The notes under the pieces: generated by a model
The model's database searches: none
The model's input: only the letters and a program-made list of their open reading frames with translations
What the model was told of the DNA's origin: nothing
NCBI GenBank assembly: GCA_903885795.1
Contig: CAISJV010000084.1
Location: 1-64,000, forward strand
From: an uncultured delta proteobacterium
GTDB taxonomy: Bacteria > Desulfobacterota > Syntrophia > Syntrophales > UBA8958
Length of the DNA: 64,000 bases
Reading direction: 5' to 3'
Made by a program: the position numbers and the translations under genes
Shown: positions 31,084 to 62,019 of the stretch, in pieces
Numbering within the stretch: the first letter of the stretch is position 1
Layout: each line of letters starts with the position of its first letter

Positions 31084-31383
31084 ATGAACCAATTGATTAT
31101 TGAGTTGAAACAAAAAATCATCGAAACCCTGAACCTGCTGGATGTCTCTCCAGCGGATATCGACGAAAACGGACAACTCATCGGTGGCGATCTCGGACTG
31201 GATTCCATCGATGTCCTGGAACTGGTTATGATGCTTGAAAAAGATTACGGCGTAGAAATCGAAAGCAAAGAACTAGGTATCAAGGTCTTTGCCTCTGTTG
31301 CAGCGTTAGCGGATCATGTCTACCATCACCGGACAAAGAGCCATGCCGGTGCCGGGGATTCGACTGCGCCGGAATTCCCGTAA
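31084..31383 (+). CDS. Acyl carrier protein 1
   Basis: A 99-residue ACP with the phosphopantetheine attachment Ser41 in the motif GLDSIDVLELVMMLE, and a non-conserved C-terminal tail after about residue 80. It is the first gene of the biosynthetic locus, 6 bases before the CrtI-like gene. It would carry the growing chain as a thioester. Four distinct ACPs occur in the locus, so each may serve a different ketosynthase or tailoring enzyme. Confidence 0.93.
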   Translation: MNQLIIELKQKIIETLNLLDVSPADIDENGQLIGGDLGLDSIDVLELVMMLEKDYGVEIESKELGIKVFASVAALADHVYHHRTKSHAGAGDSTAPEFP

Positions 31384-31389
31384 AAGGGC

Positions 31390-32850
31390 ATGGCTGGACA
31401 GGTCCTGATTATCGGTTCAGGTATCGGTGGATTGACCGCCGGCATCATCCTGGCGCAGCTTAAGCATCCGGTGACGGTCGTGGAAAGGAACCCGCGACCC
31501 GGAGGGCTGATGCGCAGCTACCGCCGATCCGGCATTGATTGCCCCGTGGGCGTCCACTATCTGGGCGCCCTCGACCGGGGGCAGATACTGCGCCGATTAT
31601 GGGATGCCATCGGCGTCACGCCGCTTATCCCCCTTGAGCGCATGGGCGCTGAAGGTGTCATCGACCGCTATATTTTCGACGATTTTGAATTTAATCTCCC
31701 TTCCGGCATCGATCCTTTTGAAGAAAACCTGAGGAGAACCTTTCCGGAAGAACAGTGCCAGATTACGATGATCATGGCCGATCTGAGGGAGATATCACGA
31801 TCGCTCTCGACGTTTGACTTTTTACTTTCACCAGCCCTGTCCGATCTTTTCCCGGAACGCTTTGCATCCATGGGAGAGCGCCTTTCAAATCTGGGTTGCT
31901 CCATACGGCTGGCATCCCTTCTGGGTGTACCGGCCGGGCTGATCGGGGTTCCTCTGCGGGAATGTCCGGTCTATTATTACTACATTACCCTGGCCTCCTA
32001 TCTCATGTCCTCCTGGCGTTTGGTCGATAGCGGCACGGCCATGGCGGAAGCTTTCGTGTCCCAACTCCAGTCGCTGGGCGGAAATATTGTGGCCGGAGAC
32101 GGCGTTGCGGCGATTCAAGTGGAAGCGGGTCATGTAAAGGGCGCCGTTTTAAGCTCCGGACGCATTCTTCCGGCGGATGTTGTCATTGCCGCCGTTCATC
32201 CGGAGACGGTCCTATCCATGCTCCCCGACGATATGGTCAGACCTTCCTATCGTGAACGTGTAGGCCAACTGGAAAATACCAAGGGGCTTCTTGGTGTGAA
32301 TGCTGTCGTTGCCGCCGACTTGCACCGTCCGCTGCCTTACAATGTATATCGCCTCTACACTGAGGCGGACGGTTCTCTTACCCGGGGGATTTTCCACCAA
32401 CTGCGCGAGAGCGGGCAACCGGGAATGAATCTCCTTTCCATGATTACCACCAGCGATATTGAGGAATGGCGACCATGGGAAAAAACGATGTCGGGAAGGC
32501 GCGGCGAAGACTACAAGGAGGCTAAGGAGAAACGAGCGCATTGGATGATCGAAGAGGCAGCGGAGTTGTTCGGCATTCGGGATATAAATCTCCTGGATGT
32601 CTATTCGCCTCTCACCATCCGGGATGGTGTAAACAGTCCCGGCGGATCGGCGTACGGGATCATGCGCACGACGAAGCAACTTATGAAAGTAGCATCCTTG
32701 AATCGTGTGCCCGTCAAAGGGTTGTTCCTCGCCGGCCAGAATAGGCTGGCTTCGGGGATTATGGGGACTATGCTGGGGTCTTTTCAGGCCGTCCGGCAGA
32801 TGATCGGCCATGAAAAATTCATCAGGGAAGTGGCGGTAAGGCTGATATGA
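31390..32850 (+). CDS. Phytoene-desaturase-like FAD oxidoreductase (CrtI/retinol saturase type)
   Basis: The 486-residue protein has an N-terminal Rossmann FAD motif (LIIGSGIGGLTAGIILAQL), the ERNPRPGGLMRSY stretch, and a C-terminal FLAGQNRLASGIMGTMLGSF typical of the CrtI superfamily. Members desaturate, saturate or isomerise polyene chains. No carotenoid genes (crtB, crtE) are nearby; a role in setting double bonds of the ACP-bound or free chain is inferred. It overlaps the following radical SAM gene by 4 bases. Similar genes appear in gene sets proposed for ladderane lipid synthesis. Confidence 0.87.
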   Translation: MAGQVLIIGSGIGGLTAGIILAQLKHPVTVVERNPRPGGLMRSYRRSGIDCPVGVHYLGALDRGQILRRLWDAIGVTPLIPLERMGAEGVIDRYIFDDFEFNLPSGIDPFEENLRRTFPEEQCQITMIMADLREISRSLSTFDFLLSPALSDLFPERFASMGERLSNLGCSIRLASLLGVPAGLIGVPLRECPVYYYYITLASYLMSSWRLVDSGTAMAEAFVSQLQSLGGNIVAGDGVAAIQVEAGHVKGAVLSSGRILPADVVIAAVHPETVLSMLPDDMVRPSYRERVGQLENTKGLLGVNAVVAADLHRPLPYNVYRLYTEADGSLTRGIFHQLRESGQPGMNLLSMITTSDIEEWRPWEKTMSGRRGEDYKEAKEKRAHWMIEEAAELFGIRDINLLDVYSPLTIRDGVNSPGGSAYGIMRTTKQLMKVASLNRVPVKGLFLAGQNRLASGIMGTMLGSFQAVRQMIGHEKFIREVAVRLI

Positions 32851-34196
32851 AGGTGCTGCTCATCTCGACGAACACCATGAAGGAACCTTATCCGACGTAC
32901 CCCATCGGCCTCGACTATGTCCTGAATGCCATCTCACCTCCCCATCTGGTCCAGTGCGTCGATATGAACGAACTGAATACTGCTGCCGCCCTTGTCGGAG
33001 TTCTTTCCGGCTTCCGTCCCGATGTCGTCGGATTATCCATCCGTAATGTAGATAATGTCGATGGGGCTTGCAGCCAATCGTTGATTGGGGAGATCGCAGG
33101 TGTGATCGAGGTGATCAGGCGGAATTCGGAAGGCGTCATTGTCCTGGGGGGGAGCGGGTTCACGATCCTGCCCCGGGAATTCATGACAGAACTAGATGCC
33201 GATTTTGGCGTGATCGGTGAAGGGGAACGGTTGCCGCTTCTTCTCGATGCCATGGAAAGAGGAGAATCGGGCGCCGGTCTCCCCGGCATCGTAGTCGGGA
33301 AGGGTCCGGCCGTATACCAGGAACCCATCTCAATCCCCTTCGGACGCGGCATTTTTCCACATCATTCCTATACTTCTTTTTACCTTAAAAAGGGGGGCAT
33401 GCTCAATTTGCAGACCAAGCGTGGCTGCCCCTTCGGTTGTATCTATTGTACGTATCCCCTTATCGAGGGCAGGAGGTTCCGCTTTATGCCACCTTCGGAA
33501 GTGGGCCGGACGGCCCGAATGCTTCAGGATGCCGGGGCTAAATACCTTTACATCACGGATTCGACGTTCAACGGCAGCTACGAACATAGCCGGGAAGTAG
33601 CCCTGGCCTTCCAGAAGGCCGGCGTCTCCATTCCCTGGGGGGGGTTTTTTACCCCGACATGCCCGCCGCCTGACTACTACCGGGCGCTGGCCGATGCGGG
33701 GCTCCGGCACGTGGAATTCGGCACGGAAGCCCTCTCCAATTTGGTGCTTGGTCTTTATAATAAGCCTTTTGTGAAGGAGGATGCCTTCTTCGCCCACCGG
33801 TCGGCCCTGGAAGCCGGCCTGCATGTCGCCCACTACCTCATTTTCGGGGGCCCCGGGGAGAATGAAAACACCATCCAGGAAACCATATCCAATTCCTGTC
33901 AATTGGAGAAAACGGTTTTTTTCGTTTATAACGGAGTGAGAATTTACCCGCATACGGCCCTGTATGAACGGGCAGTGCGGGAGGGGCAGCTTGAATCTTC
34001 AGCAAATCTCCTGTATCCGTTATTTTACTGGTCGCCGGTCCTGAACCGGGAGCGTGGGATGGCTTTGATAAACGAACACGCCGCCGGCCGACCGAATTGG
34101 GCAGTCGGCAGCGGTCCGCCGGGGATGTTCAAGGCGCTGTCGCGGCTGCATGACAGAGGGCGCGTGGGACCTCTATGGGAGCATCTGGTACGGTGA
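32847..34196 (+). CDS. B12-binding-type radical SAM enzyme 1
   Basis: The 449-residue protein has an N-terminal cobalamin-binding-like fold (about 1-160: MKVLLISTNT start, VIVLGGSGFTILPREF, DFGVIGEGERLPLL) and a radical SAM barrel with the 4Fe-4S triad C194, C198 and C201 in RGCPFGCIYC. The canonical DxHxxG cobalamin ligand is not evident, so B12 binding is uncertain. Reactions of the family include methylation, cyclisation and ring contraction. It is coupled to the CrtI-like gene upstream (4-base overlap) and the deacetylase downstream. Confidence 0.88.
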   Translation: MKVLLISTNTMKEPYPTYPIGLDYVLNAISPPHLVQCVDMNELNTAAALVGVLSGFRPDVVGLSIRNVDNVDGACSQSLIGEIAGVIEVIRRNSEGVIVLGGSGFTILPREFMTELDADFGVIGEGERLPLLLDAMERGESGAGLPGIVVGKGPAVYQEPISIPFGRGIFPHHSYTSFYLKKGGMLNLQTKRGCPFGCIYCTYPLIEGRRFRFMPPSEVGRTARMLQDAGAKYLYITDSTFNGSYEHSREVALAFQKAGVSIPWGGFFTPTCPPPDYYRALADAGLRHVEFGTEALSNLVLGLYNKPFVKEDAFFAHRSALEAGLHVAHYLIFGGPGENENTIQETISNSCQLEKTVFFVYNGVRIYPHTALYERAVREGQLESSANLLYPLFYWSPVLNRERGMALINEHAAGRPNWAVGSGPPGMFKALSRLHDRGRVGPLWEHLVR

Positions 34197-35029
34197 GCAA
34201 AGACCGCGGTAGGATGTATCCTGTCCCACCGGCAGTGGCGGCCGGTCTTGCGGCGATGATCCTTGCCTTGGCTTTGGCCGTTGTGCGCATCGAATTGGCA
34301 GCCGTGCCCTTATTCATCTTTGTTGTCCTATGTGTGGCCGCGGCGTTTCAACCGGCATACGGTTTTATTTTGCCGGTCGTCAGCCGGGGACACACGGGAA
34401 GATTGGTTGTGTCCCTCACCTTCGATGACGGGCCGGATCCGGCGACGACCCCGGCTCTTTTACAACTGCTGGACAGGCATGGCGTAAAAGGCGCTTTCTT
34501 CGTTACGGGAGAAAGGACTAGCCAATATGGACACCTCATATCGGAGATTGTGGAACGTGGTCATGACATCGGGAGCCACTCGTTCAGCCATGATCCTTTT
34601 TTGATGCTACGCCGGACGGAAAGACTGCTACGGGAGATTGCATCGACGCAAACGCTGCTCCATCGCTTTGGCATCTCTCCCGTGGCGTTCCGGCCGCCCG
34701 TAGGCATTGCCAATTCGAAGCTTCCCCGTGTTCTGCGTAAAGTGGGGCTTTATTGCGTCATTTTCTCCTGCCGGGCCGGGGACTTTGGGAATCGGCGGAT
34801 ACACAGACTTGCCGAAAAAATTCTGAAAAAGGTGAAAGCTGATGATATCATAATGCTTCATGATGTTCTGCCGCGTAGCGTCGGCGGCGTCGAATCATGG
34901 CTTCACGAGGTTGATTTAATCCTGGACGGATTGAAAAATAAAGGTCTGGAAGTGATCCCCCTGTCCGAACTGATTGCCAGACCGGTGATGGTGAAGGTGG
35001 ATAGGCTGAATGGTAAAGGGACTCGTTAA
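34193..35029 (+). CDS. Membrane-anchored NodB-type polysaccharide deacetylase
   Basis: The protein begins with two hydrophobic helices (AVAAGLAAMILALALAVV and PLFIFVVLCVAAAF), then a NodB domain. The metal and catalytic motifs are TFDDGPDPATTP and GSHSFSHDPF (His pair), with FRPPVGIAN and DIIMLHDV later. Family members remove N- or O-acetyl groups from sugars. In this locus a sugar-decorated lipid or an ester cleavage is possible (inference). The start is uncertain: ATG 34175, GTG 34193 (overlapping the upstream stop) or ATG 34214; I use the GTG. Confidence 0.85.
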   Translation: MSKDRGRMYPVPPAVAAGLAAMILALALAVVRIELAAVPLFIFVVLCVAAAFQPAYGFILPVVSRGHTGRLVVSLTFDDGPDPATTPALLQLLDRHGVKGAFFVTGERTSQYGHLISEIVERGHDIGSHSFSHDPFLMLRRTERLLREIASTQTLLHRFGISPVAFRPPVGIANSKLPRVLRKVGLYCVIFSCRAGDFGNRRIHRLAEKILKKVKADDIIMLHDVLPRSVGGVESWLHEVDLILDGLKNKGLEVIPLSELIARPVMVKVDRLNGKGTR

Positions 35030-35108
35030 CTACAAAAAATATTGATATGCTCCTCGATCGATGATAAAAATCAAAGATTAAATAAATCGTTGATGAGTTA
35101 CCGCTTTT

Positions 35109-35495
35109 ATGCAAGAAATATGGCATGAAATGAAGTTTGAAAATTCGCCCGAAGGAAGCATTTTGGCGGAGGCGTGGGTGGGTGCGTCATCGCCGTGGTT
35201 TTCAGGCCACTTTCCGGGGGCGCCGGTTTTGCCCGCCATTGCGATCCTATCCATGGTACGGGATGTCATTTCTCGTCATGAAGCCGAGCAGGGAAGAAAG
35301 ATCAAAGTATCGGCGATTCACAGGGTCAGGTTCAGGGTGCCAGCGAAGCCGGACGATGTGCTGAAGATATCAGCAACTTCATCGAATTGCCCCGGCCAGA
35401 CTTCCTATCAATTCAAGGTGGAAGTAAACGGCCAGACGGCGTGCACGGGCATGATGGCAGTGGAGACATTGCAGGGGGAAAACCAAGAGCCTTAA
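35109..35495 (+). CDS. FabZ/ApeI-like hotdog dehydratase lacking the usual acidic residue
   Basis: The 128-residue hotdog protein has the FabZ motif FSGHFPGAPVLPA, with catalytic His34. In FabZ a Glu follows 14 residues later (GVLIIEALAQ); here the matching stretch reads AIAILSMVRD, with Ser in place of Glu. It therefore keeps the His but not the acid, which suggests an inactive dimer or a mixed active site with another subunit. Expected role: 3-hydroxyacyl-ACP dehydration. It lies 39 bases before the second ACP gene. Confidence 0.85.
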   Translation: MQEIWHEMKFENSPEGSILAEAWVGASSPWFSGHFPGAPVLPAIAILSMVRDVISRHEAEQGRKIKVSAIHRVRFRVPAKPDDVLKISATSSNCPGQTSYQFKVEVNGQTACTGMMAVETLQGENQEP

Positions 35496-35533
35496 GGCGG
35501 CGACTTATTTATTATTGGCGAGGAGGATAGGGA

Positions 35534-35797
35534 ATGTCTGCAAAAGATAAAGAAGCTTTAATCGTTCGTATTGCCGAAATCATTATATTCGAGCTCAAAT
35601 TGGAAGATATAACTCCGGAGTCGTTTGATCCCGATCTCGATCTGATCGATGAATTGGGTGTTGATAGTATGGACCTGGCAACGGTGGTGCTCGTTCTTCA
35701 GGATGAATACGGTATAGCCATCGATGAAGATGACTATCCCAAACTTAGCAGTATCCGCCTGATTGCCGAATATATCAAGCAGAAGCAGGCTGCATGA
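35534..35797 (+). CDS. Acyl carrier protein 2
   Basis: An 87-residue acidic ACP with Ser45 in ELGVDSMDLATVVLVLQ. It has a strong GAGGAGG-like ribosome site. It is placed between the FabZ-like gene and the pair of radical SAM genes, so its acyl load may be the substrate for those radical enzymes (inference from position only). Confidence 0.93.
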   Translation: MSAKDKEALIVRIAEIIIFELKLEDITPESFDPDLDLIDELGVDSMDLATVVLVLQDEYGIAIDEDDYPKLSSIRLIAEYIKQKQAA

Positions 35798-35824
35798 ATG
35801 AAACCCGGAAAGTTTGGCTGATCC

Positions 35825-36931
35825 ATGGATAGTGTGAACACCGCAGCGGAATCCCGCTGTCAGACCGGAACGAAGACCTGGAAGTTCTCCGAACTTCTGG
35901 CCGATCCTGAGGTACGTCGATTATGGGAAAAAGTTCGTAAGTTCTTTTTCCTCCGGGAATCGACGTATGATATGACCACGCGCTGTAATATCCGCTGCGA
36001 TGGCTGCTATTATTATGAGGGACAGAAGCAGTTTGCCGCCCCTAATGAAGATCCGGCCGCCTGGAGACGTTTATTTCAGGAGGAGAAAAAAAGGGGCATC
36101 ACCTATGTGGTTCTGGCGGGTGCCGAACCGTCTTTGGTCCCGGAAATTCTGGAGAGCTGTTATGGAGAAATACCGCTGGGCTGCGTGGCCACGAACGGAT
36201 TGAAGCGGATTCCCGAAACTGTCGGCTATAAGATGCATATCTCCGTTTGGGGAAACGACGAGACCAGTTTTCGCGTGCGAGGGGCGAAGCATTTATTGCG
36301 CAAGCAGATCGATAATTACCAGGGCGATCCCAGGGCTGTCTTCGTATATACGTTTACCCGTGACAACATCGAAGAGGCCTATGAAGTTACGGAGGCGATT
36401 GCCCGGCAAGACTGTCGACTGACCTTCAACATGTTTTCTTCCCCCGTCGGATATACGGGGAATCTCCGTCATGATCCGGCATCCCTCGCACGGACCGGTC
36501 AGGTCATGCTGGATCTAATGTCACGGTACCCGGTCAATGTCCTGTTTTCCCATTACAATGTCGTGGCCCATACCCATGAATACGGTCTCCATGACCTTTA
36601 CGGGTGTACCTACCCGCGAAGGAACCCCTCGGTGGATATCGGTCTGGGAAGGTCATTCCGGCAATACCGGGCAGATCTCTCCTGGGATCGCGAGGTGGCC
36701 TGCTGTGTCCCCGATACGAATTGCGATGATTGCCGCCATTACGCCTCGGGCAGCGCCGTGGTTACGGCCCGCCTGTTCCGTCATGTCACGGACCCCAAAA
36801 CCTTCCGGTCCTGGCTGGACTACGTTGATACCTACCTGGCCGTATGGGTTAAAAATTATGAAAAAAGCGATTCCCTTTGCCGGGAGATGATCAGGCCGCC
36901 CCGGCCCAAAGGGGAGGATGGCAGAGAATAA
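35825..36931 (+). CDS. Radical SAM enzyme 2 (first of a tandem pair)
   Basis: The 368-residue protein carries the radical SAM triad C54, C58, C61 in TTRCNIRCDGCYYYEG. A C-terminal Cys group (ACCVPDTNCDDCRHY) may bind an auxiliary cluster, SPASM/twitch-like. No B12 domain. It is a paralogue of the next gene: shared ISVWG/ISLWG, NYQGDP/NYEGDP and the C-terminal CC...C..C pattern. Substrate unknown; in this context an ACP-bound or free polyene is plausible. It lies 27 bases after the ACP 2 gene. Confidence 0.9.
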   Translation: MDSVNTAAESRCQTGTKTWKFSELLADPEVRRLWEKVRKFFFLRESTYDMTTRCNIRCDGCYYYEGQKQFAAPNEDPAAWRRLFQEEKKRGITYVVLAGAEPSLVPEILESCYGEIPLGCVATNGLKRIPETVGYKMHISVWGNDETSFRVRGAKHLLRKQIDNYQGDPRAVFVYTFTRDNIEEAYEVTEAIARQDCRLTFNMFSSPVGYTGNLRHDPASLARTGQVMLDLMSRYPVNVLFSHYNVVAHTHEYGLHDLYGCTYPRRNPSVDIGLGRSFRQYRADLSWDREVACCVPDTNCDDCRHYASGSAVVTARLFRHVTDPKTFRSWLDYVDTYLAVWVKNYEKSDSLCREMIRPPRPKGEDGRE

Positions 36932-36934
36932 TTT

Positions 36935-37933
36935 ATGAATACAGTCAGTTCCTTGTTGGATGATTCGTGGCGTGAGCGGTACCGGCGGATATCCTCTCTC
37001 AATATCCGCAGTTCCATATATGATGTGACCAACCAGTGCAATTTGCGTTGCCGGGGTTGTTTCTTCTATTCTTCGAAGGAGCATGAGGCGGCCTCTGAAG
37101 AGATGGATTTGCAGAAGTGGCATGAGTTTGTCGGGAGAGAGAAGGAGCGGGGTGTGAATCTCGCTATCCTGATCGGCGGTGAGCCAACGCTGTATCTGGA
37201 CCGGGTGGCCGCGTTTTACCAAACCATGCCGACGTATTGCGCTACAAACGGACAGATCAAGGTTCCCCGGGACCGTTTTCCCGACATGATGGTGGGCATA
37301 TCGCTATGGGGTGACGAAGAGGATGAAAAGGTGCTGCGGGGAAAGAATACCTTTGCCGTCTCCAGCAAGAATTACGAAGGCGACCCCTACACCTATTATC
37401 TCTATACGATCACGCCGAAACAGGTCGGACGGATCGGAGAGGTCATCCGGAAAATTGACGATGCAGGGCTCAAAGTCCATCTCCAATTGCTGACGAATGA
37501 CGAGCAGGTGGATGGATATTCCTGGACGGAAGAAAAAATGCGCGACGTGCGCGCTGAAATGGACGAAATGTTGGAGTATTACCCTAAAACGGTAATCTCT
37601 TGTAAATACTACCACGAAATCATCACCACGGGCAAAATGATGGGGCGGTCTTTTGGCTGGAACGAGTGCCCATCCGTCACTGAATCGATGGATAAGCGGA
37701 ATCCCCGGCCCAAACGGCTCATCCGGTTTATCCGCTGGGCGTCGGATCTGAAGACACAGCACCGCTGCTGCACCTCGGCGACCCGCGATTGTGCGACCTG
37801 CAAGGACGGCGCTGCGCATATGAGTTGGGTCATGGTCAACAAGCGGGAGCACCTGAAATCCGCAAAGGACCTGCAGAACTGGATCGAGGTCTACGAGATG
37901 TTCGCCAAGCTCTACCAGTTCATCCCATGGTAG
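36935..37933 (+). CDS. Radical SAM enzyme 3 (second of a tandem pair)
   Basis: The 332-residue protein has the triad C35, C39, C42 in TNQCNLRCRGCFFYS, the GGEPTLY SAM-binding segment and C-terminal cysteines in RCCTSATRDCATCKDGAA that may hold an auxiliary Fe-S cluster. It follows its paralogue by only 3 bases, pointing to gene duplication and possibly a heterodimer or two successive steps. It contains no cobalamin domain. Function unassigned. Confidence 0.9.
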   Translation: MNTVSSLLDDSWRERYRRISSLNIRSSIYDVTNQCNLRCRGCFFYSSKEHEAASEEMDLQKWHEFVGREKERGVNLAILIGGEPTLYLDRVAAFYQTMPTYCATNGQIKVPRDRFPDMMVGISLWGDEEDEKVLRGKNTFAVSSKNYEGDPYTYYLYTITPKQVGRIGEVIRKIDDAGLKVHLQLLTNDEQVDGYSWTEEKMRDVRAEMDEMLEYYPKTVISCKYYHEIITTGKMMGRSFGWNECPSVTESMDKRNPRPKRLIRFIRWASDLKTQHRCCTSATRDCATCKDGAAHMSWVMVNKREHLKSAKDLQNWIEVYEMFAKLYQFIPW

Positions 37934-37975
37934 CGCCGGCCATGAGCATCGTTTTTCCGGTCGGAACCGTACGGC

Positions 37976-39226: not shown

Positions 39227-39241
39227 GATAAACCGGATTAG

Positions 39242-40507: not shown

Positions 40508-40508
40508 A

Positions 40509-40988: not shown

Positions 40989-41024
40989 GCGGAATATTCT
41001 AGATCGGAGAGTTCGATAACCCCT

Positions 41025-41312: not shown

Positions 41313-41337
41313 GCACCAGTGAGGCTAAAGGAGTATT

Positions 41338-50911: not shown

Positions 50912-50916
50912 CGGTT

Positions 50917-53797: not shown

Positions 53798-53921
53798 AAG
53801 GGAAAGGAGTTCGCGATCTTGCTTTTTCCCCATGCCTTCAGTTCCCAGCCATTTCTTGACAGGCTACTATGCTCACAGTATAAGGACACGGCAAAGAAAA
53901 AGGCGCTTGATCGGGGATACC

Positions 53922-54641
53922 GTGAAGAAAGAGACTAATGGTTGGGATTATTTTGATCGCATCTACTGTATCTCCTTGGAAGAGCGAGAAGACCGGCGGC
54001 AGGCGGCTGCGGTTTCGTTCTCCACCGTAGGACTGACCGAAAAAGTTGAATTCGTCATCGTCAAACGTCATCCCTCCAATATCGAACAAGGAATGTATGA
54101 ATCTCACATGACCTGCCTGCGTAAGGGCTTGGAAGCCGGTGCAGAGAGGATCGTCGTTTTCGAGGACGACGTCGCGTTTGACCGCTTTGATGCTGAGCGC
54201 TTCAAACAATCCATTCAATTTTTAGTGGAAAATCCGAAGTGGAAAGTGCTGCTTTTGGGGGCCTTAATACGCTCAAGCAGGAGAACGGCCAATCCGTTTA
54301 TACAAAAAGTCGGTTACCAGAGCCTTGCACATGCGTACGCCCTAAACAGATCTTACGCTGAAGCCTTGGCTTATCAACCCTGGCAGGGGATTGTCATCGA
54401 CACCCTGTTTCGGCCTCTGACTGATGACCTCTATGCCGTTTATCCTATGTTTGCGTTTCAAAACGATTTCGCCTCGGACAATGACAACAAATACGCGGGC
54501 ATTGAGCGCTTCAGGCGATTGTGCGGCGGACTTGAGCGGATTCAAAAGGCAAACGAATTCTATCAGCGCCATAAATTGGGCGTCATTGCCGCCCACATCA
54601 TGATTATTTTATCCCTCCTTATCGTTATCCTCTCTCGATGA
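53922..54641 (+). CDS. Glycosyltransferase family 25-like protein with C-terminal membrane helix
   Basis: The protein has the GT25 features RIYCISLEEREDRR, HMTCLRKGLEAG and the acidic VVFEDDVAF. It ends in a transmembrane helix (AAHIMIILSLLIVILS), so it probably faces the cytoplasm at the inner membrane. GT25 enzymes add galactose or similar sugars to LPS. The frame extends to 53832, but GTG 53922 has a GGGGAT ribosome site and begins just before the conserved domain. It would add a sugar to a product of the locus or to lipopolysaccharide; which is unknown. Confidence 0.75.
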   Translation: MKKETNGWDYFDRIYCISLEEREDRRQAAAVSFSTVGLTEKVEFVIVKRHPSNIEQGMYESHMTCLRKGLEAGAERIVVFEDDVAFDRFDAERFKQSIQFLVENPKWKVLLLGALIRSSRRTANPFIQKVGYQSLAHAYALNRSYAEALAYQPWQGIVIDTLFRPLTDDLYAVYPMFAFQNDFASDNDNKYAGIERFRRLCGGLERIQKANEFYQRHKLGVIAAHIMIILSLLIVILSR

Positions 54642-54687: not shown

Positions 54688-56091
54688 TTAATTTGCCTGA
54701 ATCTTTCCTGATTTCAAAATTCGTTCGATTTCCATCCGGTCATATTTGCCGGATGGCGTCATGGGTATCTCTTCCACAACGGCCAGTCGTTTGGGAACGG
54801 CGTAAGCTTCGCTGGTACAGGCAATGCCGCGCCTCACATCAATTACATCGAGTCGGGTCGCGACCAGAGCGGCCAGTTCATTCTGCCTCCCCGTTCTGAC
54901 GGGCATTGCCATTACCACCGCATCATAAACGCCGGGAATCCGCTTCAGTTTGGCCTGAACGGCAGCCATGTCAACTCTCTTGCCGCCGATCTTGACGATA
55001 TCGTCCACTCTGCCGCGCAGGATGAAGCGGCCATTTCCGTCCGGATCAGCGCAGTCTGCCGTGACAAAGAAACCGTCGCCGTCCCGGGGAAGTGTCGGAG
55101 AGAGAAAGTCCGACCGGACGCAAAGGCTCCCATCGCGAATCCTCCAATCGACGGGGTCTATGGGGACCCATGATTCCCGATCCGAAAAGCTGCGTCTTGT
55201 CGCCACGCCTCCCGTTTCCGTCGAACCATAGACTTCGATAACATCCACACCTGTTTTTTCGCGAAAATAGAGGCCATCCTCCTGGTCCAGCATTCCCGCC
55301 GACGAAAAGGCCATCCGCAGATGGAAGCGCTGTAGGGCATCATTTTTCAGGACCCGAAAATGAACGGGAACGCTGACCAGAACGGTTGCCTTATGTTCCT
55401 GTGCGGCTAAAAGGATTTCTTTGGGGAAGGTATAGATTCCAGGGAGAACGCGGGCGGAGCTGAGCAATGGAATCAGTACGGAAAAGAGCAGACCGTAGAT
55501 GTGGCAAGGAGGCACGGTTGAGAGAAACAAATCGTCTTTCGTGATGGCGAATGTGTCCGATTGGTAGCGGGCCTCGGCAAGCATATTCCGTGGTGTCTTG
55601 GGCCAAATTGTCGGTTTCCCCGTAGAGCCTCCTGTAAACAGAATGAGAAAAGGCTCGTCGGGATCACGAACGGAATCGGTCAGAGCGGCGCTTTGCGGCG
55701 GAATTGCAGCGGTGTCGATAATGCGCGGTCCGGGCGGAAAATCTCCTGAGCCGTCAGCGAGAAAAAAGGTCGGAGACAGGGTTTCCACAACTTCCTCAAG
55801 GGCCTGACGGGAGCGGGCATAGGGCAGAACAAGAAGGGGTCCGTCGCTGCTGAGGGAGGCAATCAGGGACGCGGCAAGAAGGGCCTTGTCGTCGCTGCAC
55901 AGACAAATTGTCGGTTTGCTGACATTCGTAGACTTCGCGAGTTGATAAAGGCCTGCCGCCAACCGATAGATCTCTCTGTAAGTACTGCCTCCGAATATGA
56001 ATTCTCTGTCCGGATCTGCGGGCAGGAAGAGTAATTCCCGATACCAGTCCGGATTTGTGAAACGGTCTTTTCCAAGTGGATTCGTCAACAT
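54688..56091 (-). CDS. AMP-forming acyl/aryl ligase
   Basis: The 467-residue member of the ANL superfamily has the P-loop LFTGGSTGKPTIWPKT, the A5 motif VYGSTETGG, the hinge LRGRVDDIVKIGGKRVD and the catalytic Lys in TPSGKYDR. Short ANL ligases in aryl-polyene loci (ApeH) activate an aromatic acid and load it onto an ACP. Here the likely substrate is a cinnamate or coumarate made by the ammonia-lyase (inference). It is divergent from the dehydratase gene. Confidence 0.88.
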   Translation of the reverse strand: MLTNPLGKDRFTNPDWYRELLFLPADPDREFIFGGSTYREIYRLAAGLYQLAKSTNVSKPTICLCSDDKALLAASLIASLSSDGPLLVLPYARSRQALEEVVETLSPTFFLADGSGDFPPGPRIIDTAAIPPQSAALTDSVRDPDEPFLILFTGGSTGKPTIWPKTPRNMLAEARYQSDTFAITKDDLFLSTVPPCHIYGLLFSVLIPLLSSARVLPGIYTFPKEILLAAQEHKATVLVSVPVHFRVLKNDALQRFHLRMAFSSAGMLDQEDGLYFREKTGVDVIEVYGSTETGGVATRRSFSDRESWVPIDPVDWRIRDGSLCVRSDFLSPTLPRDGDGFFVTADCADPDGNGRFILRGRVDDIVKIGGKRVDMAAVQAKLKRIPGVYDAVVMAMPVRTGRQNELAALVATRLDVIDVRRGIACTSEAYAVPKRLAVVEEIPMTPSGKYDRMEIERILKSGKIQAN

Positions 56092-56251: not shown

Positions 56252-56680
56252 ATGATGAACATAGAAGACCTGATCCCCCAGCGTGACAGAATGAAGCTCC
56301 TCGATGAGGTCGTAGCCGCAAACGAGGATGTTGCTATTACTTCGGCCAGGGCTTCCGATCGTTGGCCTCTGTGCCGGGGGGCTTACGTTGATCCTGTGGT
56401 ACTCATCGAGATTGTGGCGCAGACTGCGGCTGTTTTCATCAGTTGCAAGAAGGGGATCAAGACGGGCAGCAGCAGGCGTGGATGGATTGTCGGCATCAAG
56501 AATGCGGATTTTTTTGTGGATCGGATTCCTCTGGATACGGTGCTCATCACGACGGTTAAAGATCTGTATCATCTGGACCAGTATAGTGTCCTGGATGGCG
56601 AGGTTACCGCAGCAGCAGAGACGCTGTGCCGTGTCCAAATTCAGGTGTTCCGTGAAATTGACGAAGAAAAAATATTATGA
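56252..56680 (+). CDS. ApeP-like hotdog dehydratase lacking the usual His
   Basis: The 142-residue hotdog protein starts IPQRDRMKLLDEV, where relatives have PHRxPMLLLDxV, and has LIEIVAQTAAVF with Glu53. The region that would carry GHFPG reads RGAYVDP, without the His. Thus the acid is kept and the His lost, the reverse of the FabZ-like protein at 35109. The dehydratases ApeI and ApeP of aryl polyene synthesis work as a mixed complex. A second ATG at 56255 is possible. Confidence 0.82.
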   Translation: MMNIEDLIPQRDRMKLLDEVVAANEDVAITSARASDRWPLCRGAYVDPVVLIEIVAQTAAVFISCKKGIKTGSSRRGWIVGIKNADFFVDRIPLDTVLITTVKDLYHLDQYSVLDGEVTAAAETLCRVQIQVFREIDEEKIL

Positions 56681-56694
56681 GGGAGAGAGATGTC

Positions 56695-57423
56695 ATGGAA
56701 GAAGAACAGATTGCCCTGGTGACTGGCGGCAGCCGCGGTATCGGCCGCGCGATTGCGATTGAACTTGCCGAAGCCGGCTACGGGATTATCTTTACCTATA
56801 AGTCAAACGATCAGGCGGCCGATGAAACCGTCGACATGATTCGCTCAAGGGGGGGACGGGCGGAGAAAATCCGATTCGATGTCGCAGACGCGAAGGAAGC
56901 GGCTCCCATCATGAATGAGATTATCACTCAGCACAGCAACATTGGCATTCTGGTCAATAATGCCGGAATCAATGCCGATGGCCTGTTCATGATGATGCCG
57001 GAGGAAGACTGGGATTCCGTCATCCAGACGACCCTCAAGGGTTTCTACAATATGACGAAGCCGATTGTAAAAATGATGGTCAGGAAAAAGAAGGGTTCTA
57101 TTGTCTCGATATCGTCTGCATCGGCCCTTATGGGCAACAGGGGACAGGCCAACTACGCAGCGGCGAAGTCCGGACTGATTGCGGCGAGTCGTGTCCTCGC
57201 AGCGGAGGTCGGCAGACTGGGCGTTCGTGTCAACGTCGTTGCGCCGGGGTTGATCGACACCGATATGATCAAGGGCGCTCCCGTGGAAAGAATCAAAGAT
57301 ATCATCCCCATGGCAAGGATCGGCAAGCCGGAGGAGGTGGCAAAAGTTGTCCGTTTTCTCTGCTCCGATGATGCTTCTTATGTTACGGGACAGGTTATAT
57401 CCGTCAATGGCGGGATGTTTTGA
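56695..57423 (+). CDS. FabG-type 3-ketoacyl-ACP reductase
   Basis: The short-chain dehydrogenase has NAD(P) motif VTGGSRGIGRAIA, the NNAG loop in LVNNAGINAD, catalytic Ser in SISSASAL, and Tyr-x-x-x-Lys in YAAAKSG. It reduces the 3-ketoacyl-ACP. The frame is open to ATG 56677 overlapping the previous stop, but ATG 56695 has a GGGAGAG site at good spacing; the product is 242 residues. Adjacent to the ApeP-like gene, it completes the reduce-and-dehydrate cycle. Confidence 0.92.
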   Translation: MEEEQIALVTGGSRGIGRAIAIELAEAGYGIIFTYKSNDQAADETVDMIRSRGGRAEKIRFDVADAKEAAPIMNEIITQHSNIGILVNNAGINADGLFMMMPEEDWDSVIQTTLKGFYNMTKPIVKMMVRKKKGSIVSISSASALMGNRGQANYAAAKSGLIAASRVLAAEVGRLGVRVNVVAPGLIDTDMIKGAPVERIKDIIPMARIGKPEEVAKVVRFLCSDDASYVTGQVISVNGGMF

Positions 57424-58043
57424 TGCACCGTTTCAAAAGATATTGTGCCATCATTTCGGTTCTTCTTTCCTGCGTCGTCCTTTTGGGATGGGCGGATAGC
57501 TGGGAAAGCATTCAGAAGGAATCGGCAAAGATCAAGTCCGTCAAAGCTCAATTTACCCAGTCGAAGCACATGAAGATCCTCGCCAGGCCCCTTGTTTCAA
57601 AGGGGCGTTTTTATTTCCAGTCCCCCGATTCGGTCCGCTGGGAATACGTCTCCCCGGTGAAGAGTATTCTCCTCATGAACAGGGACGGGATCAGAAGATA
57701 CACCCAGGGCAGCGGGGGTCTTGCGGAGGATAAAAGCGGATCCCTGCAATCGATGCAGGTAGTTCTGAAGGAAATCGGTCAGTGGAGTAAGGGGCAGTTC
57801 ACAACGAATGAACATTTCACGGCGGTCCTGAAAAAGGGCAGCGAGCCGACGATCATCATGACCCCCAGGGAGAAGGGGTTTGCCGCCATGATCTCGCGCA
57901 TTGTCATCACTCTTTCTTCGGACAGGCCGGGCATCCTGAAATCGGTGAAGATATTTGAGAATGAGGGCAACTACACCCTCTTTGAGTTTAACGATGTGCA
58001 GGTCAATGAAAAGATCGCTGAATCGTTATTCCGGGATGCATAA
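57423..58043 (+). CDS. LolA-like periplasmic lipid-carrier protein
   Basis: The roughly 206-residue protein begins with a signal peptide (IISVLLSCVVLLGWA) followed by SVKAQFTQSKHMKIL and GRFYFQSPDSVRWEY, characteristic of LolA. LolA carries lipids or lipoproteins across the periplasm. LolA-like genes are standard in aryl polyene loci, so it probably carries the product to the outer membrane. ATG 57423 overlaps the fabG stop. Confidence 0.87.
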   Translation: MHRFKRYCAIISVLLSCVVLLGWADSWESIQKESAKIKSVKAQFTQSKHMKILARPLVSKGRFYFQSPDSVRWEYVSPVKSILLMNRDGIRRYTQGSGGLAEDKSGSLQSMQVVLKEIGQWSKGQFTTNEHFTAVLKKGSEPTIIMTPREKGFAAMISRIVITLSSDRPGILKSVKIFENEGNYTLFEFNDVQVNEKIAESLFRDA

Positions 58044-58723
58044 TGGTGATGAACCCGCCGCTCAAATATGGATTCGCCGTGCTTATGATGGCGTCATTTC
58101 TGTTTTCGTGCAGCCGCCTTCCTGTGATCAAAACTGGGGAACCGGCAGCGGCGGCGGCGCTCATCGAGCAGTGTCGTCGGCCATATCCTGCCGTCCCCTA
58201 TCGTTTTGTTCATGCGATAGAAGTGATGTTGCCGGATGGATCGTCAGAAACCATGATGGGCGTTACACTTGTTGATCCCAAGGCGGCGGCCGTCCATAGT
58301 GTGATTATGACCATTGAAGGGTTTGTTGTTTTTGATGGCGTTTATGATAAGGATGTACGTGTTGATCGGGCGGTGCCGCCCTTCGATAAGCCCCATTTCG
58401 CAAGGAAGATGTTAAAGGATGTCCGCCTGATGTATCTGGCGCCGGAGGGGCGGCCGGTGAATGTCGGTTTCCTTGAAGACGGAGCCGTTATCTGCCGGTA
58501 TGTGGGAAATGAGAATCCCTTCATGGATATAATCCTTTATCGGAACGGATCATGGGAGATCGACGCTTACAGTGAACATGAAGAACTAAGACGGCGGATC
58601 AAGGCCGGTTCCGTCAAGGATGGAATCCCGGAGACGGTTGAGTTGCATGGTTATGAATCCTGGGATTATACGCTGCAAATGAGACTGATCTCTGCCGAGA
58701 CGGTAGAATTAGGAATATTTTAA
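58043..58723 (+). CDS. Lipoprotein of aryl-polyene locus type (DUF3261-like)
   Basis: The 226-residue protein has a signal peptide ending in the lipobox LFSC, then an Ala-rich stretch and a beta-rich domain (YRFVHAIEVMLPDGSSETMMG; IEGFVVFDGVYD). It resembles outer-membrane lipoproteins that accompany LolA in aryl polyene loci, but the family match is from pattern memory, not a search. It overlaps the LolA stop by 1 base. Confidence 0.7.
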   Translation: MVMNPPLKYGFAVLMMASFLFSCSRLPVIKTGEPAAAAALIEQCRRPYPAVPYRFVHAIEVMLPDGSSETMMGVTLVDPKAAAVHSVIMTIEGFVVFDGVYDKDVRVDRAVPPFDKPHFARKMLKDVRLMYLAPEGRPVNVGFLEDGAVICRYVGNENPFMDIILYRNGSWEIDAYSEHEELRRRIKAGSVKDGIPETVELHGYESWDYTLQMRLISAETVELGIF

Positions 58724-58763
58724 TTATTACGAGGACTTAAAACTTAACACGGAATACGATTTT

Positions 58764-60017
58764 ATGAAATTTAAGCTGATCTTTCCCCTGTGGAGAAAAC
58801 TTGACGGCCAGACGGAGTTTCATCTGCCCCCTCATGGGCCGGTCGTCTTTGCTGCGACCATACCGGCTGATGTGGATGTCTCATTTGTGGACGAAAACGT
58901 GGAAGCCATCGATTTTGATGACTCCCCAGATTTTGTCGGCATCTCCATGATGCTGACCAGCCAGGTAAAACGGGCCTGGGAGATCGCCGATCGGTACCGG
59001 CAACGTGGTATCAAGGTCATCTTTGGCGGCATCGCGACGATGCTCCATGCCGAGGAGACGATGCTCCACGCCGATGCCGTATTCCTCGGCGAAGCGGAAG
59101 GCAGGATGGAGGAGGTCTTCCGTGACTTCAGTGAGAACCGCCTGAAGAAATGCTACGACTACCTCCTTGATTTCCCTCCCATTGAATCCGTCGGTCCGGC
59201 GAGGAGATCCATATTGAACCGCGAGCTTTATTATTACAAAGGTGTGCAGATGGTTGATCTTGTCCATGCCTCGCGGGGATGCCGGTTTAACTGTTACCCC
59301 TGCTGCGTCAGTTTTCTGGGGGGCAGGACCTTCAGACCCCGGCCTTACGATAAGGTCATCGAAGAGCTCGCCGGCATCGATAATAACCGGCTTTTCATGG
59401 TCGATAATTCCCTTGCCCAGGACAAGAAGTGGGAAATGGATCTCTTCCGGGAGATGATACCACTCAAAAAGAAATGGTGCTGCCATCCGATCGAGGATGA
59501 CGACGAGGTCCTCGATCTGGCTGCTCAGGCAGGCGCCTGGTATGTCTATCAGGCCGTCTTCGATACATCCGATTACATCCGGGATCGCATCAAGCGCTAT
59601 CACGACCATGGCATCGGTGTGGAGGGGACGATCCTTTTGGGTCTTGACCACCATACGGAAGACTATATCAAGGAGATGATCGACTTTCTCCTGGAGGTGA
59701 ACCTGGACCTTGCGGAATTCACCATCCTGACGCCATTCCCCCATACCAGGGCCTTTGACGATCTTAAGCAGGAGGGGAGAATTCTGTCCTACGACTGGAA
59801 TGATTATACCTGTGACCGGGTCGTCTTTCAGCCGAAGAATATGTCGCCCGAGAGGCTCCGGGAGCTCTACGATTATGCCTGGGAGACTTTTTACCGGCAC
59901 GAACCGCAGAGTTACAAGATGTTCAAACTGATCAAGAAGGTTATGATGAAGGAAAAGGAAGAGGGCACCTTCAAACAGCGAAGGCGGGATCTCATCTCCC
60001 AGGCATTTGGGAAATAA
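58764..60017 (+). CDS. B12-binding-type radical SAM enzyme 5
   Basis: The 417-residue protein starts with a B12-binding-like domain (about 1-130: MKFKLIFPLW, FVGISMMLTSQ, VIFGGIATMLHAEETM), followed by the radical SAM triad C173, C177, C180 in SRGCRFNCYPCCV. It is followed after 17 bases by the ammonia-lyase. Role unknown; placement suggests action on the aromatic starter or the aryl chain. Confidence 0.9.
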   Translation: MKFKLIFPLWRKLDGQTEFHLPPHGPVVFAATIPADVDVSFVDENVEAIDFDDSPDFVGISMMLTSQVKRAWEIADRYRQRGIKVIFGGIATMLHAEETMLHADAVFLGEAEGRMEEVFRDFSENRLKKCYDYLLDFPPIESVGPARRSILNRELYYYKGVQMVDLVHASRGCRFNCYPCCVSFLGGRTFRPRPYDKVIEELAGIDNNRLFMVDNSLAQDKKWEMDLFREMIPLKKKWCCHPIEDDDEVLDLAAQAGAWYVYQAVFDTSDYIRDRIKRYHDHGIGVEGTILLGLDHHTEDYIKEMIDFLLEVNLDLAEFTILTPFPHTRAFDDLKQEGRILSYDWNDYTCDRVVFQPKNMSPERLRELYDYAWETFYRHEPQSYKMFKLIKKVMMKEKEEGTFKQRRRDLISQAFGK

Positions 60018-60034
60018 CAATTGAAAGTGGAAGA

Positions 60035-61588
60035 ATGAGCAAGAAAGAAGTTGTTGCAGTCGATGGCGGACAGATAAGCCTTGAGCGGATTGCGGCCGTC
60101 GCCAAGGGTGATGCGAGCGTCAGGGTCGGCACGGATACTAAATTCGTGAAACGCATGGAGCGGGCACAGGAACTGGTGATGGCCGCCATGCAAAACGATG
60201 TTCCCCTGTACGGTGTGAATACGGGATTCGGAAAGTCATGCAGCAAACGGGTTCCCGTCCGGACGACCTCCAGAAAGGTCGTCAGTCCCATCGCCTTTCA
60301 CGGTTGCGGGACCGGGGAGCCCCTCGGCATCGAGGAGACGCGGGCGGCAATGTTGTGTCGGATGATCTGTCTGGCACGGGGCAACTCGGGAGTATCCATC
60401 GAACTCCTGGAGCAGATGGCGTCCTTTCTCAATCTCGGCATTACGCCGGTCGTTCCCGCGGAGGGCTCCGTCGGCGCTTCGGGCGACCTGACCCCCATGT
60501 CCTATATTGCCGCCTGTCTTGAGGGAGAGCGTGAGGTATTTTACCGAGGTCGCCGCATGCCCGCCCTGAAAGCGATCAAGCTGGCCAAATTGACGCCTTA
60601 CCGGTACGGTGCGAAAGAACCCCTTTCCATGATCAACGGCACGTCGACCATGACGGGGATTGCCGTCATGGCTGTTGTCAGGGCAAGGAGAATTCTCCAT
60701 GCCGCCATCGGCGCCACGGCGCTCAGCGTTCATGCCTTCAAGGGCAAGGTTCATCATTTTCACTCCCTGATCAGTGAAGTAAAACCGTTTCCGGGGCAGA
60801 TATTTGTTGCCGAAAAGCTGCGAAATCTCCTGGAAACGAAGAAGGCCCTGACCGGCCTCGAGGACCATGAACTCGGCGCCCTGCAGGACCCCTATTCGAT
60901 ACGCTGCACCCCGCAGATTGCCGGTGTTCTCTTCGATGCCCTGGCCTGGATTGAAAAGTGGGTGGAGATAGAGGCGAACAGCTCGAACGACAATCCGATC
61001 TTTGATCCCGATACGGGTCAGATTTTTATGAGCGGCAATTTCTATGGCGGGCATATGGCATTTGCCATGGATTGTCTGAAATCGGCGGTGGCAGCCATAG
61101 CCGACATGTCGGACCGCCAGGTTGTCCTGCTTGTAAATCCCCAGACCAATCGCGGGCTCCCGGCCGATCTTGTCGGTGCAAAAGGCGACGACATGCTGGT
61201 GAATCACGGTTTCAAAGCCGCATCCATAACGGCAACGGCACTGTGCGCGGAGGCGCTAAAATTAACCATGCCTGCCGCCTCTTTTTCGCGATCCTGCGAA
61301 TCCCACAACCAGGATAAGGTAAGCATGGGAACCATCGCCGCGAGAGACGCCCTGCGGATCTGCACCCTTACGGAGAGGATTGTGGCCATACATATCCTTG
61401 CGGCGGTTCAGGGTTGCGAGTTGCGTAAGAATTGTAAAGTCAGGCCGAGGCTTTCGGAATTGATCGGCAACATCCGGTCTCTGGCTGAGGGCATCATCGA
61501 CGACCGGCCTATGGACATGGATATTGAAAATGTTGCCAGGGCCATATCCGCCACGGACATGTTTGCGCCGCCAGGCGATTCAGGGTAG
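60035..61588 (+). CDS. MIO-type aromatic amino acid ammonia-lyase (TAL/PAL/HAL family)
   Basis: The 517-residue enzyme has the MIO-forming triad Ala148-Ser149-Gly150 in SVGASGDLTPMS, and the catalytic Tyr59 in YGVNTGFG. The substrate-selecting pair, by alignment to the region that reads HL in tyrosine, FL in phenylalanine and SH in histidine lyases, is Phe88-His89. This mixed pair leaves specificity open. The product would be cinnamate, p-coumarate or urocanate. In this locus it most likely supplies the aryl starter acid, as in flexirubin and some aryl polyene pathways. Confidence 0.9.
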   Translation: MSKKEVVAVDGGQISLERIAAVAKGDASVRVGTDTKFVKRMERAQELVMAAMQNDVPLYGVNTGFGKSCSKRVPVRTTSRKVVSPIAFHGCGTGEPLGIEETRAAMLCRMICLARGNSGVSIELLEQMASFLNLGITPVVPAEGSVGASGDLTPMSYIAACLEGEREVFYRGRRMPALKAIKLAKLTPYRYGAKEPLSMINGTSTMTGIAVMAVVRARRILHAAIGATALSVHAFKGKVHHFHSLISEVKPFPGQIFVAEKLRNLLETKKALTGLEDHELGALQDPYSIRCTPQIAGVLFDALAWIEKWVEIEANSSNDNPIFDPDTGQIFMSGNFYGGHMAFAMDCLKSAVAAIADMSDRQVVLLVNPQTNRGLPADLVGAKGDDMLVNHGFKAASITATALCAEALKLTMPAASFSRSCESHNQDKVSMGTIAARDALRICTLTERIVAIHILAAVQGCELRKNCKVRPRLSELIGNIRSLAEGIIDDRPMDMDIENVARAISATDMFAPPGDSG

Positions 61589-61599
61589 AGGGGGGCTTT

Positions 61600-62019
61600 A
61601 TGGCGGAGAGTCAACAGCGGAGTTTTGAGGTAGAAGGCCGGGTGGCATTTTACGAGTTAGATCCCATGCGGATTGTCTGGCATGGCAACTATTTCAATTA
61701 TTTCGAGGACGCAAGAAGCGCCCTCCTTGCACATTATGGCATTGACCTCAATGAATATTTTGCAAGGTCCCAATGCCTGTTTCCCATCATCAGAACATCT
61801 TCAAAGCATATCTATCCCCTGAGATACGGGGATGAATATATCTGTAAAGCCACCTTGGTTGAGGTAAAGACAAAGCTTGTCGTCGATTTTGAAATCAGGC
61901 TTAAAAGCGACGGAAGGATTTGCACCCGCGGCAGGACTGAGCAAGTGACGGTAAAAGCGCCGGAGATGGAGATCGTCTTCAACATCCCTGAAGAAATTCG
62001 CCAGGCCCTGGGATTTTAA
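61600..62019 (+). CDS. Hotdog acyl thioesterase 2
   Basis: The 139-residue protein has the 4HBT pattern YELDPMRIVWHGNYFNYFEDAR. It differs from the first thioesterase and resembles those of aryl polyene loci. It would release the finished acyl chain or edit stalled ones. It lies 11 bases after the ammonia-lyase and is the last clear gene of the locus. Confidence 0.87.
   Translation: MAESQQRSFEVEGRVAFYELDPMRIVWHGNYFNYFEDARSALLAHYGIDLNEYFARSQCLFPIIRTSSKHIYPLRYGDEYICKATLVEVKTKLVVDFEIRLKSDGRICTRGRTEQVTVKAPEMEIVFNIPEEIRQALGF

Follow-up and report, generated by a model that had tools for sequence, protein, structure and literature searches.

The locus at positions 31084–62019 of the window (the whole 64,000-nucleotide stretch analysed, G000:C84:1-64000, from the 95-contig genome of an uncultured delta proteobacterium) raised the question of whether its aryl polyene (APE)-type genes and its radical S-adenosylmethionine (rSAM) genes serve one pathway, and which lipid such a pathway would make. 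The first-pass annotation had listed APE-type genes, five rSAM genes, a CrtI-like oxidoreductase, and extra ketosynthases (KS) and acyl carrier proteins (ACP). All of these were recovered from the open reading frames (ORFs) and from Pfam and NCBIfam scans of the locus proteins, with some calls weak. Its view that the two sets are joined, and not brought together by chance insertion, also held: much of the gene set, and largely its order, was kept elsewhere in the phylum, outside its own family and order, and rSAM3 and rSAM5, which mark the two halves of the locus, occurred together in 38 of 41 distinct rSAM3-positive Desulfobacterota genomes. The inheritance as one unit, together with a dehydratase pair split between the halves, made an rSAM-modified APE-type lipid the best reading. 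A single pathway was given a probability of about 0.6; in it, an APE-type type II polyketide synthase would build an ACP-bound polyene, four conserved rSAM enzymes would alter it, and the product would enter an envelope lipid. Gene homologies, co-inheritance, and intact motifs were observed, whereas every substrate, the reaction order, the chemistry of the rSAM enzymes, and the lipid itself are inferred.

Two gene sets and their shared inheritance

The region 31084–62019 was densely coding in the ORF list of the window. A run of 19 plus-strand genes (31084–48564), separated by short gaps or overlapping, was followed by a five-gene minus-strand block (48597–52898), a small membrane-protein-like ORF (53141), and a GT25-like gene (53832). 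A minus-strand AMP ligase (54688) preceded the second plus-strand run (56252–62019). Relatives of rSAM3 (36935–37933), which served as the query to delimit core-positive genomes, were encoded in 320 stretches of the genome collection, the best 80 of which were kept, all with at least 75% identity; the combination is thus not peculiar to the window. Counts out of 32 loci refer to those of the best 80 of 320 stretches that had both 10-kb flanks. FabZ1 (35109–35495), ACP2 (35534–35797; PF00550), rSAM2 (35825–36931; 64–74% identity), rSAM3, KS1 (37976–39226), and KS2 (39242–40507) were each present in 32 of 32 loci. The genes for rSAM5 (58764–60017), the LolA-like carrier (57420–58043), and the ligase (54688–56091) were counted in 7, 10, and 7 of the loci, respectively, and were under-counted, as they lie about 10 kb or more away.

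The dehydratases linked the two halves. The 18-gene APE cluster of E. coli CFT073, with gene roles taken from PMC8253772, served as the reference for BLAST and hhalign; statements on published work here refer to the parts of the papers that were available. FabZ1, in the first half, matched only ApeI by BLAST and was paired by hhalign with ApeI (98.1%) and not ApeP (0.2%). FabZ2 (56252–56680), in the second half, was paired with ApeP (98.9%) and not ApeI (0.1%). Pfam scores were below the cut-offs (PF22818, ApeI-like, 27.4 vs 28.5; PF22817, ApeP-like, 19 vs 27), so both calls rest on profile comparison. The best PDB matches of FabZ1 were ordinary FabZ enzymes, with only weak matches to the anammox FabZ entries 7qv0 and 8ayb–8ayi. 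Because the ApeI-like and ApeP-like partners are divided between the halves, the halves should act together in one pathway.

Co-occurrence was followed in two samples. Among 60 relatives, including the source genome, rSAM3 was strong in 21 (as a fragment only in G042), and rSAM5 (E ≤ 1e-60) was found in 18 of these and in none of the 39 rSAM3-negative genomes. Among 345 genomes of the phylum, rSAM3 was found at E ≤ 1e-20 in 25; G077, with one 31% match, was dropped, and rSAM5 was present in all of the remaining 24 (22 at 71% or more, G142 at 54%, and G134 at 49%). The samples shared four positives, which gave the 41 distinct genomes. Inside families f1, f10, f16, f19, and f20, the presence of rSAM3 was variable and rSAM5 tracked it, except in G005; in family f11, rSAM5 did not track rSAM3 (G036). 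The core-positive set was completed to 43 genomes by Desulfosarcina widdelii (G395) and Desulfogranum japonicum (G396), and 16 negatives were picked from the 39. Of the 43 core-positive genomes, all but G017 and G142 had the ApeR-type KS3 (E ≤ 1e-120; 41 of 43), which none of the 16 core-negative genomes had. A fusion of an MMPL exporter with a methyltransferase (E ≤ 1e-60) occurred in 38 of the 43 and, again, in none of the 16; it was missing in G005, G017, G034, G052, and G140, and partial in G036, G048, G053, G105, and G188.

Two cultured species carried the set, D. widdelii PP31 and D. japonicum DSM 18378. In D. widdelii, rSAM5, lipoprotein, LolA, FabG, and FabZ2 genes were divergent from a series of ACP1, rSAM1, FabZ1, ACP2, rSAM2, rSAM3, KS1, KS2, thioesterase TE1, the dehydratase-like/phosphopantetheinyl transferase (PPTase) fusion, and PlsY. 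PlsY was followed by a small ORF, GT25, the MMPL-methyltransferase, which was first recognised in this locus, and a deacetylase-like gene; the AMP ligase lay about 7 kb beyond, past other genes, and KS3 lay outside the locus, elsewhere in the genome. D. japonicum had most of the same set, plus ACP3, KS3, acyltransferase, and rSAM4. These data support the APE and rSAM sets behaving as one inherited unit. As judged from sequence, the combination of APE-type genes with four conserved rSAM genes is real, widespread, and co-inherited.

Proposed assembly of the lipid

In this genome, the aromatic amino acid ammonia lyase (60035–61588; PF00221, 509 bits) would make an arylacrylate starter. The enzyme contained the ASGDL motif and an FHGCG loop, which in the form FHGCGTG was common to 12 of 12 sequences examined, that of the window included. 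When aligned to a tyrosine ammonia-lyase chain, it had Phe at the selectivity position, where His marks Tyr specificity, and the next residue was a HAL-like His. The Phe residue suggests a Phe-like substrate, an assignment made tentative by the His that follows. A lyase with at least 52% identity was found in 23 of 43 core-positive genomes, namely 19 of 24 in the order to which the window belongs, 4 of 17 in the rest of the phylum, and 0 of 2 named cultures; D. widdelii had a 35% match about 160–180 kb from its locus. The ApeH-like ligase (PF00501; 27% identity to ApeH over most of its length) would load the arylacrylate onto ACP. The ligase was kept in several lyase-free loci (G073, G145, G314, G333, G352, G389, and D. 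japonicum), where the chain may therefore begin from other acids. Since the lyase, CrtI, and rSAM4 are accessory, a lyase-made aryl cap is expected here and not in every relative. The earlier suggestion of an aryl-capped polyene in a membrane lipid thus stood as the best reading of one inherited unit, with the cap narrowed to part of the family.

The chain would be built by the ApeR-type KS3 (41338–42579), KS1 and KS2, KS4 (49466–50641) with a chain-length-factor (CLF)-like partner (48597–49469), FabG (56677–57423), and the ApeI-like/ApeP-like pair. KS3 had 38% identity to E. coli ApeR over its full length, and its best PDB matches, 7f27 and 4ewg, were named ApeR in PMC8358021. KS1, KS2, and KS3 retained conserved Cys and His residues that resemble an active-site set. 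FabG had 45% identity to ApeQ and KS4 29% to ApeO, and further BLAST matches to the reference cluster covered ApeI, ACPs, thioesterase, acyltransferase, and LolA. For KS4, PRK09185 was under its cut-off and 6qsp was third in the PDB list. The carriers ACP1 (31084–31383; 47% to ApeE by BLAST, 21 of 32 loci), ACP3 (41025–41312), and ACP4 (50645–50911, start inferred) matched PF00550. The dehydratase-like/PPTase fusion (44901–46451) scored over the cut-off for ACPS and under it for PKS_DH_N, and was present in 31 of 32 loci, often at about half length. The 4HBT thioesterases were the ApeK-like TE1 (40509–40988, start inferred, listed ORF from 40407; 31 of 32 loci) and TE2 (61600–62019), each with 31% identity to the E. 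coli APE thioesterase. Among the scanned proteins of the locus, none was recognised as a dedicated enoyl reductase, and the double bonds of the chain should therefore remain. FabG also matched PF13561, the name of which mentions enoyl reductase; its closest relative was ApeQ.

The chain, still bound to its carrier, would next be methylated, or would gain carbon–carbon bonds or rings, through the B12-type enzymes rSAM1 and rSAM5 together with rSAM2 and rSAM3. The PlsY-type glycerol-3-phosphate acyltransferase (46448–47008; PF02660, 20 of 32 loci) and the ApeD-like acyltransferase (42590–43357; PF01553, 30% identity to its counterpart in the E. coli APE cluster) would attach it to glycerol. The lipid would be sent to the envelope by the LolA-like carrier (PF03548; hhalign 96.5% to the APE LolA), the putative lipoprotein (58043–58723), which adjoins LolA in relatives, and exporters. 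The exporters were an ABC-2 permease (50917–52152; PF12698) and ATPase (52149–52898; PF00005) in the minus-strand block, and the MMPL-methyltransferase fusion of the same genome (C84:91138-94164), encoded some 27 kb outside the window.

The remaining genes were an accessory CrtI/CrtD-like FAD oxidoreductase (31390–32850; homologue of at least 40% identity in 5 of 32 loci), a polysaccharide-deacetylase-like protein (34175–35029; PF01522, 23 of 32), an accessory DarG-family protein (47149–47562; NF053536, 105.6 bits vs a cut-off of 70; 1 of 32), an accessory BtrH_N-DUF4872 protein (47563–48564; Pfam, 2 of 32), the small membrane-protein-like ORF (53141–53491, minus strand; no Pfam match, a recurrent neighbour in 19 of 32), and the GT25-like glycosyltransferase (53832–54641, plus strand; PF01755, 6 of 32). 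Except for CrtI, these genes, as well as the PPTase fusion, PlsY, and the acyltransferase, were additions to the first-pass annotation. The variable parts of the set were the lyase, CrtI, rSAM4, DarG/BtrH, KS4/CLF/ACP4, and the ABC exporter.

Directly upstream of the locus, a set of Hdr/GltA/GltD-like iron–sulfur flavoprotein redox genes (18839–30758) was observed. In the regions mapped from 16 relatives, several of them short contigs, no full-length counterpart of these genes adjoined the operon, and they were therefore treated as unrelated neighbours; fragment matches to the GltA/HdrA protein covered 4–11% in G013, G017, and G032. Elsewhere in the window, an overlapping pair at 63215–63786 resembled an AbrB/MazE-type antitoxin and a PemK/MazF-type toxin (a sequence reading, no profile scan), and a tRNA-Met gene was located at 8363–8438.

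Radical enzymes and competing explanations

The CxxxCxxC motif was intact in all five rSAM genes (32847, 35825, 36935, 43354, and 58764). rSAM1 (32847–34196; motif at residue 194, 26 of 32 loci) was a B12-binding enzyme with 365.5 bits to TIGR04072, "rSAM_ladder_B12", against a cut-off of 360. rSAM5 was over the cut-off for the B12-binding domain and under it for PF04055 (26.8 vs 29.5 bits). The accessory B12 enzyme rSAM4 (43354–44904) had BchE as its best NCBIfam match (157 bits, under cut-off) and relatives with at least 50% identity in 5 of 32 loci. The small enzymes rSAM2 (PF04055, 30.3 bits, just above the cut-off) and rSAM3 (PF04055; 71–95% identity to the other 24 aligned sequences) shared a conserved C-terminal Cys pattern, C261, C293, C294, C300, and C303 in rSAM2 and C245, C278, C279, C286, and C289 in rSAM3. 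The pattern suggests a second iron–sulfur cluster, which both enzymes therefore likely carry. No named NCBIfam family was over its cut-off for either protein in the NCBIfam scan, which covered 20 of the 34 locus proteins. The predicted structure of rSAM3 (mean pLDDT 74.5) gave top PDB TM-scores of about 0.3 or less, none with E ≤ 0.001, and a PDB profile search gave weak matches, mostly to rSAM proteins. In G140, two full rSAM3 copies with 77–79% identity were located on different contigs (L061 and L080).

The strongest competitor, though improbable, was an essentially ordinary APE lipid, with the rSAM enzymes confined to adding methyl groups or to standing in, in anaerobes, for decorations that need oxygen. 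For the most part, radical SAM enzymes of the B12 type are linked to methylation (PMC13142503), and the methyltransferase ApeB of the E. coli APE cluster was assigned to the aromatic head group (PMC8253772). However, four conserved rSAM enzymes are many for decoration, the MMPL-fused methyltransferase was already present in most core-positive genomes, and rSAM2 and rSAM3, among the most conserved genes, showed no B12 domain. Non-methylating B12 rSAM enzymes are said to form rings or rearrangements (PMC13142503), so cyclisation is conceivable. Within the single-pathway reading, it is a tentative proposal, less probable than the pathway itself, that rSAM2, rSAM3, and the two B12 enzymes close rings or form carbon–carbon bonds on the carrier-bound aryl polyene, giving an undescribed class of carbocyclic membrane lipids in anaerobic Desulfobacterota and some other bacteria. 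There is a credible chance that the product represents a new lipid class.

The second competitor, two adjoining and separate pathways, one for an ordinary aryl polyene and the other an unrelated rSAM fatty-acid pathway, was unlikely. It is favoured by the halves lying on different contigs in G023, G028, G039, and G059, and by the core operon standing alone in G017. rSAM3 and rSAM5 lay on separate contigs in at least eight genomes, these four and G282, G303, G314, and G362. Against it stand the near-complete rSAM3/rSAM5 co-occurrence, the division of the ApeI-like and ApeP-like partners between the halves, and the single divergent locus with both halves in D. widdelii and D. japonicum.

Several observations count against a single APE-type pathway. 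G017, which is listed as 100% complete and is a true exception to the co-occurrence, had the core operon without rSAM5, the ApeR-type KS, the lyase, or the MMPL protein at the cut-offs used, and rSAM5 was also missing from G036 (92% complete) and G005 (78% complete). Separate draft contigs need not mean distance, but the core operon of G023 lay more than 200 kb from either contig end. The Fisher values for co-occurrence, 1.4e-12 (relatives) and 6.6e-25 (phylum), overstate independence, as the genomes are related. rSAM5 relatives at 59–65% identity were also carried by 21 of 321 rSAM3-negative genomes of the phylum, and therefore rSAM5 works in another setting too. Parts of the APE link were weak: hhalign ranked ApeR above ApeO for KS4, although ApeO was its top BLAST match; the CLF-like ORF, assigned by its position, had 12.2 bits to PF00109, below the cut-off, and no E. 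coli ApeC similarity detectable by BLAST or hhalign; and the lipoprotein ORF had no Pfam family and an equivocal DUF3261 match. Finally, 20 of 43 core-positive genomes had no lyase match at 52% or more.

Weaker paralogues of B12-rSAM proteins were common in rSAM3-negative Desulfobacterota. A sister cluster type (L211–L218; G376, G249, G358, and G337) combined rSAM5 relatives (62–65%) with a TIGR04072-like rSAM (32–37%), KS genes, and mostly DarG/BtrH and CrtI-like genes; no rSAM2 or rSAM3 match was found in it.

Anammox loci and other known systems

The remaining readings concerned ladderanes and polyunsaturated products. Radical action on carrier-bound unsaturated chains is the proposed basis of ladderane synthesis, a proposal that is hard to test since pure cultures of anammox bacteria are lacking (PMC2649909, PMC4790861). 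In a comparison of 392 genomes from the phylum of a seed genome labelled Planctomycetota, the rSAM3 profile (E ≤ 1e-15) matched five: the seed genome, at 703 bits, and four genomes with more remote rSAM3 relatives (214–230 bits). Three of these relatives, L255, L257, and L259 (G585, G557, and G457; 30–33% identity), adjoined Hdr-like genes and represent a separate setting for the rSAM3 family. The HzsA domain PF18582 was found in 75 of 392 genomes, many of which had numerous paralogues and are probably not anammox bacteria. The anammox-type set was therefore limited to 18 genomes with one or two PF18582 matches in HzsA-kind frames. The rSAM3 profile matched 0 of these 18, and TIGR04072 was present at E ≤ 1e-30 in 17 and over its cut-off in 5, compared with 0 of 14 control genomes over the cut-off.

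One anammox-type locus, in G487, had the gene order kuste3351–kuste3336 of PMC4790861. It contained TIGR04072, KS, FabG, ACP, and CrtI relatives at 20–40% identity, a short deacetylase-like match, a weak LolA match, and a match of 38% that covered 19% of rSAM3. Across all eight of the anammox regions in the comparison, rSAM3 had only a 17–19% partial match, and rSAM2, the dehydratase-like/PPTase fusion, the lipoprotein, and the lyase had no match. In the rSAM1 tree, the core type formed one clade (100/100), and the anammox sequences fell in two other groups. rSAM5 was considered and rejected as a further link: its anammox matches (34–35%) were no closer than the B12-rSAM paralogues of rSAM3-negative Desulfobacterota (about 33–39%), and because of this it was not counted as shared.

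A membrane lipid of the ladderane kind, or a similar one with fused cyclobutane rings, was accordingly judged very unlikely. The TIGR04072 score of rSAM1, barely above the cut-off, and the relatives in the G487 locus point towards it; the absence of rSAM3 from the anammox-type genomes and of rSAM2 from the regions compared, the separate rSAM1 clade, and the report that Desulfotalea, with a similar cluster, had no ladderanes (PMC2649909) point away. The resemblance to ladderane loci noted in the first-pass annotation was thus distant: TIGR04072 was shared, but in the regions compared rSAM2 had no match and rSAM3 a partial one only, and rSAM1 of the core type fell in a separate clade. Least probable was an anaerobic polyunsaturated fatty acid (PUFA) or hydrocarbon pathway, as proposed in 2009 for Desulfotalea psychrophila, for which the reported synteny and C31:8/C31:9 hydrocarbons speak (PMC2649909), whereas the same hydrocarbon of Geobacter bemidjiensis was suggested to derive from a pfa-like synthase (PMC3098273) and the present locus has ApeI, ApeP, ApeR, and ApeH relatives.

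The claim that no described pathway holds both sets was too strong for the genes, since clusters of rSAM, phytoene-desaturase-like, and FabF genes had been reported in Kuenenia, Desulfotalea, Geobacter, and Pelobacter (Rattray 2009, PMC2649909). The deltaproteobacterial clusters were read there as a possible PUFA or hydrocarbon pathway, although no product was assigned, and no APE link was seen in the available part of that paper. Among the open-access papers listed by the literature searches, no aryl polyene pathway that includes radical SAM enzymes was described in the parts available. antiSMASH "ladderane" calls exist in non-anammox phyla with no product assigned (PMC9902471), and no aryl polyene–ladderane hybrid class appeared in the available part of a Red Sea antiSMASH survey. 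The celluxanthenes, arylpolyenes of anaerobes, were rejected as a match because they are made by a type I polyketide synthase (PMC12144888).

The Desulfotalea, Geobacter, and Pelobacter clusters are alike by description only, sharing rSAM, phytoene-dehydrogenase-like, ligase, glycosyltransferase, Mmp-like, and FabF paralogues, and were assigned to PUFA or hydrocarbon synthesis and not called aryl polyene. With the dialkylresorcinol and flexirubin clusters, the locus shares the DarG-family protein, which like BtrH is accessory here, and a lyase related to the flexirubin FlxA model, under its cut-off; DarB left a 20-bit trace (cut-off 550) on KS3 among the 20 locus proteins scanned with NCBIfam. 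The anammox ladderane-candidate clusters (Kuenenia stuttgartiensis) have in common with it a TIGR04072 B12-rSAM, CrtI-like, KS, ACP, FabG, and partially deacetylase-like genes, but differ in their rSAM complement, with rSAM1 in separate clades; on present sequence comparisons, the two are distant cousins, and the locus is not a member of the ladderane clusters.

The APE cluster of E. coli CFT073 shares with the locus the ApeR-type and ApeO-like KS, an ApeQ-like ketoreductase, the ApeI/ApeP pair, an ApeH-like ligase, ACPs, thioesterase, LolA, and acyltransferase, with the MMPL-methyltransferase elsewhere in this genome. The annotation of the E. coli cluster contains neither an rSAM gene nor an ammonia lyase, whereas the locus adds four conserved rSAM enzymes, the PPTase fusion, PlsY, and a deacetylase-like protein, and in this genome also the ammonia lyase, CrtI, rSAM4, DarG/BtrH, and the ABC exporter. 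An APE-type set with four rSAM genes in named sulfate reducers would make radical chemistry on carrier-bound unsaturated chains directly testable, and the locus could bring to light a lipid that is widespread where oxygen is absent. The E. coli cluster is without the four radical enzymes, and the cultured species would allow a new, pigment-like lipid chain altered by them to be tested for.

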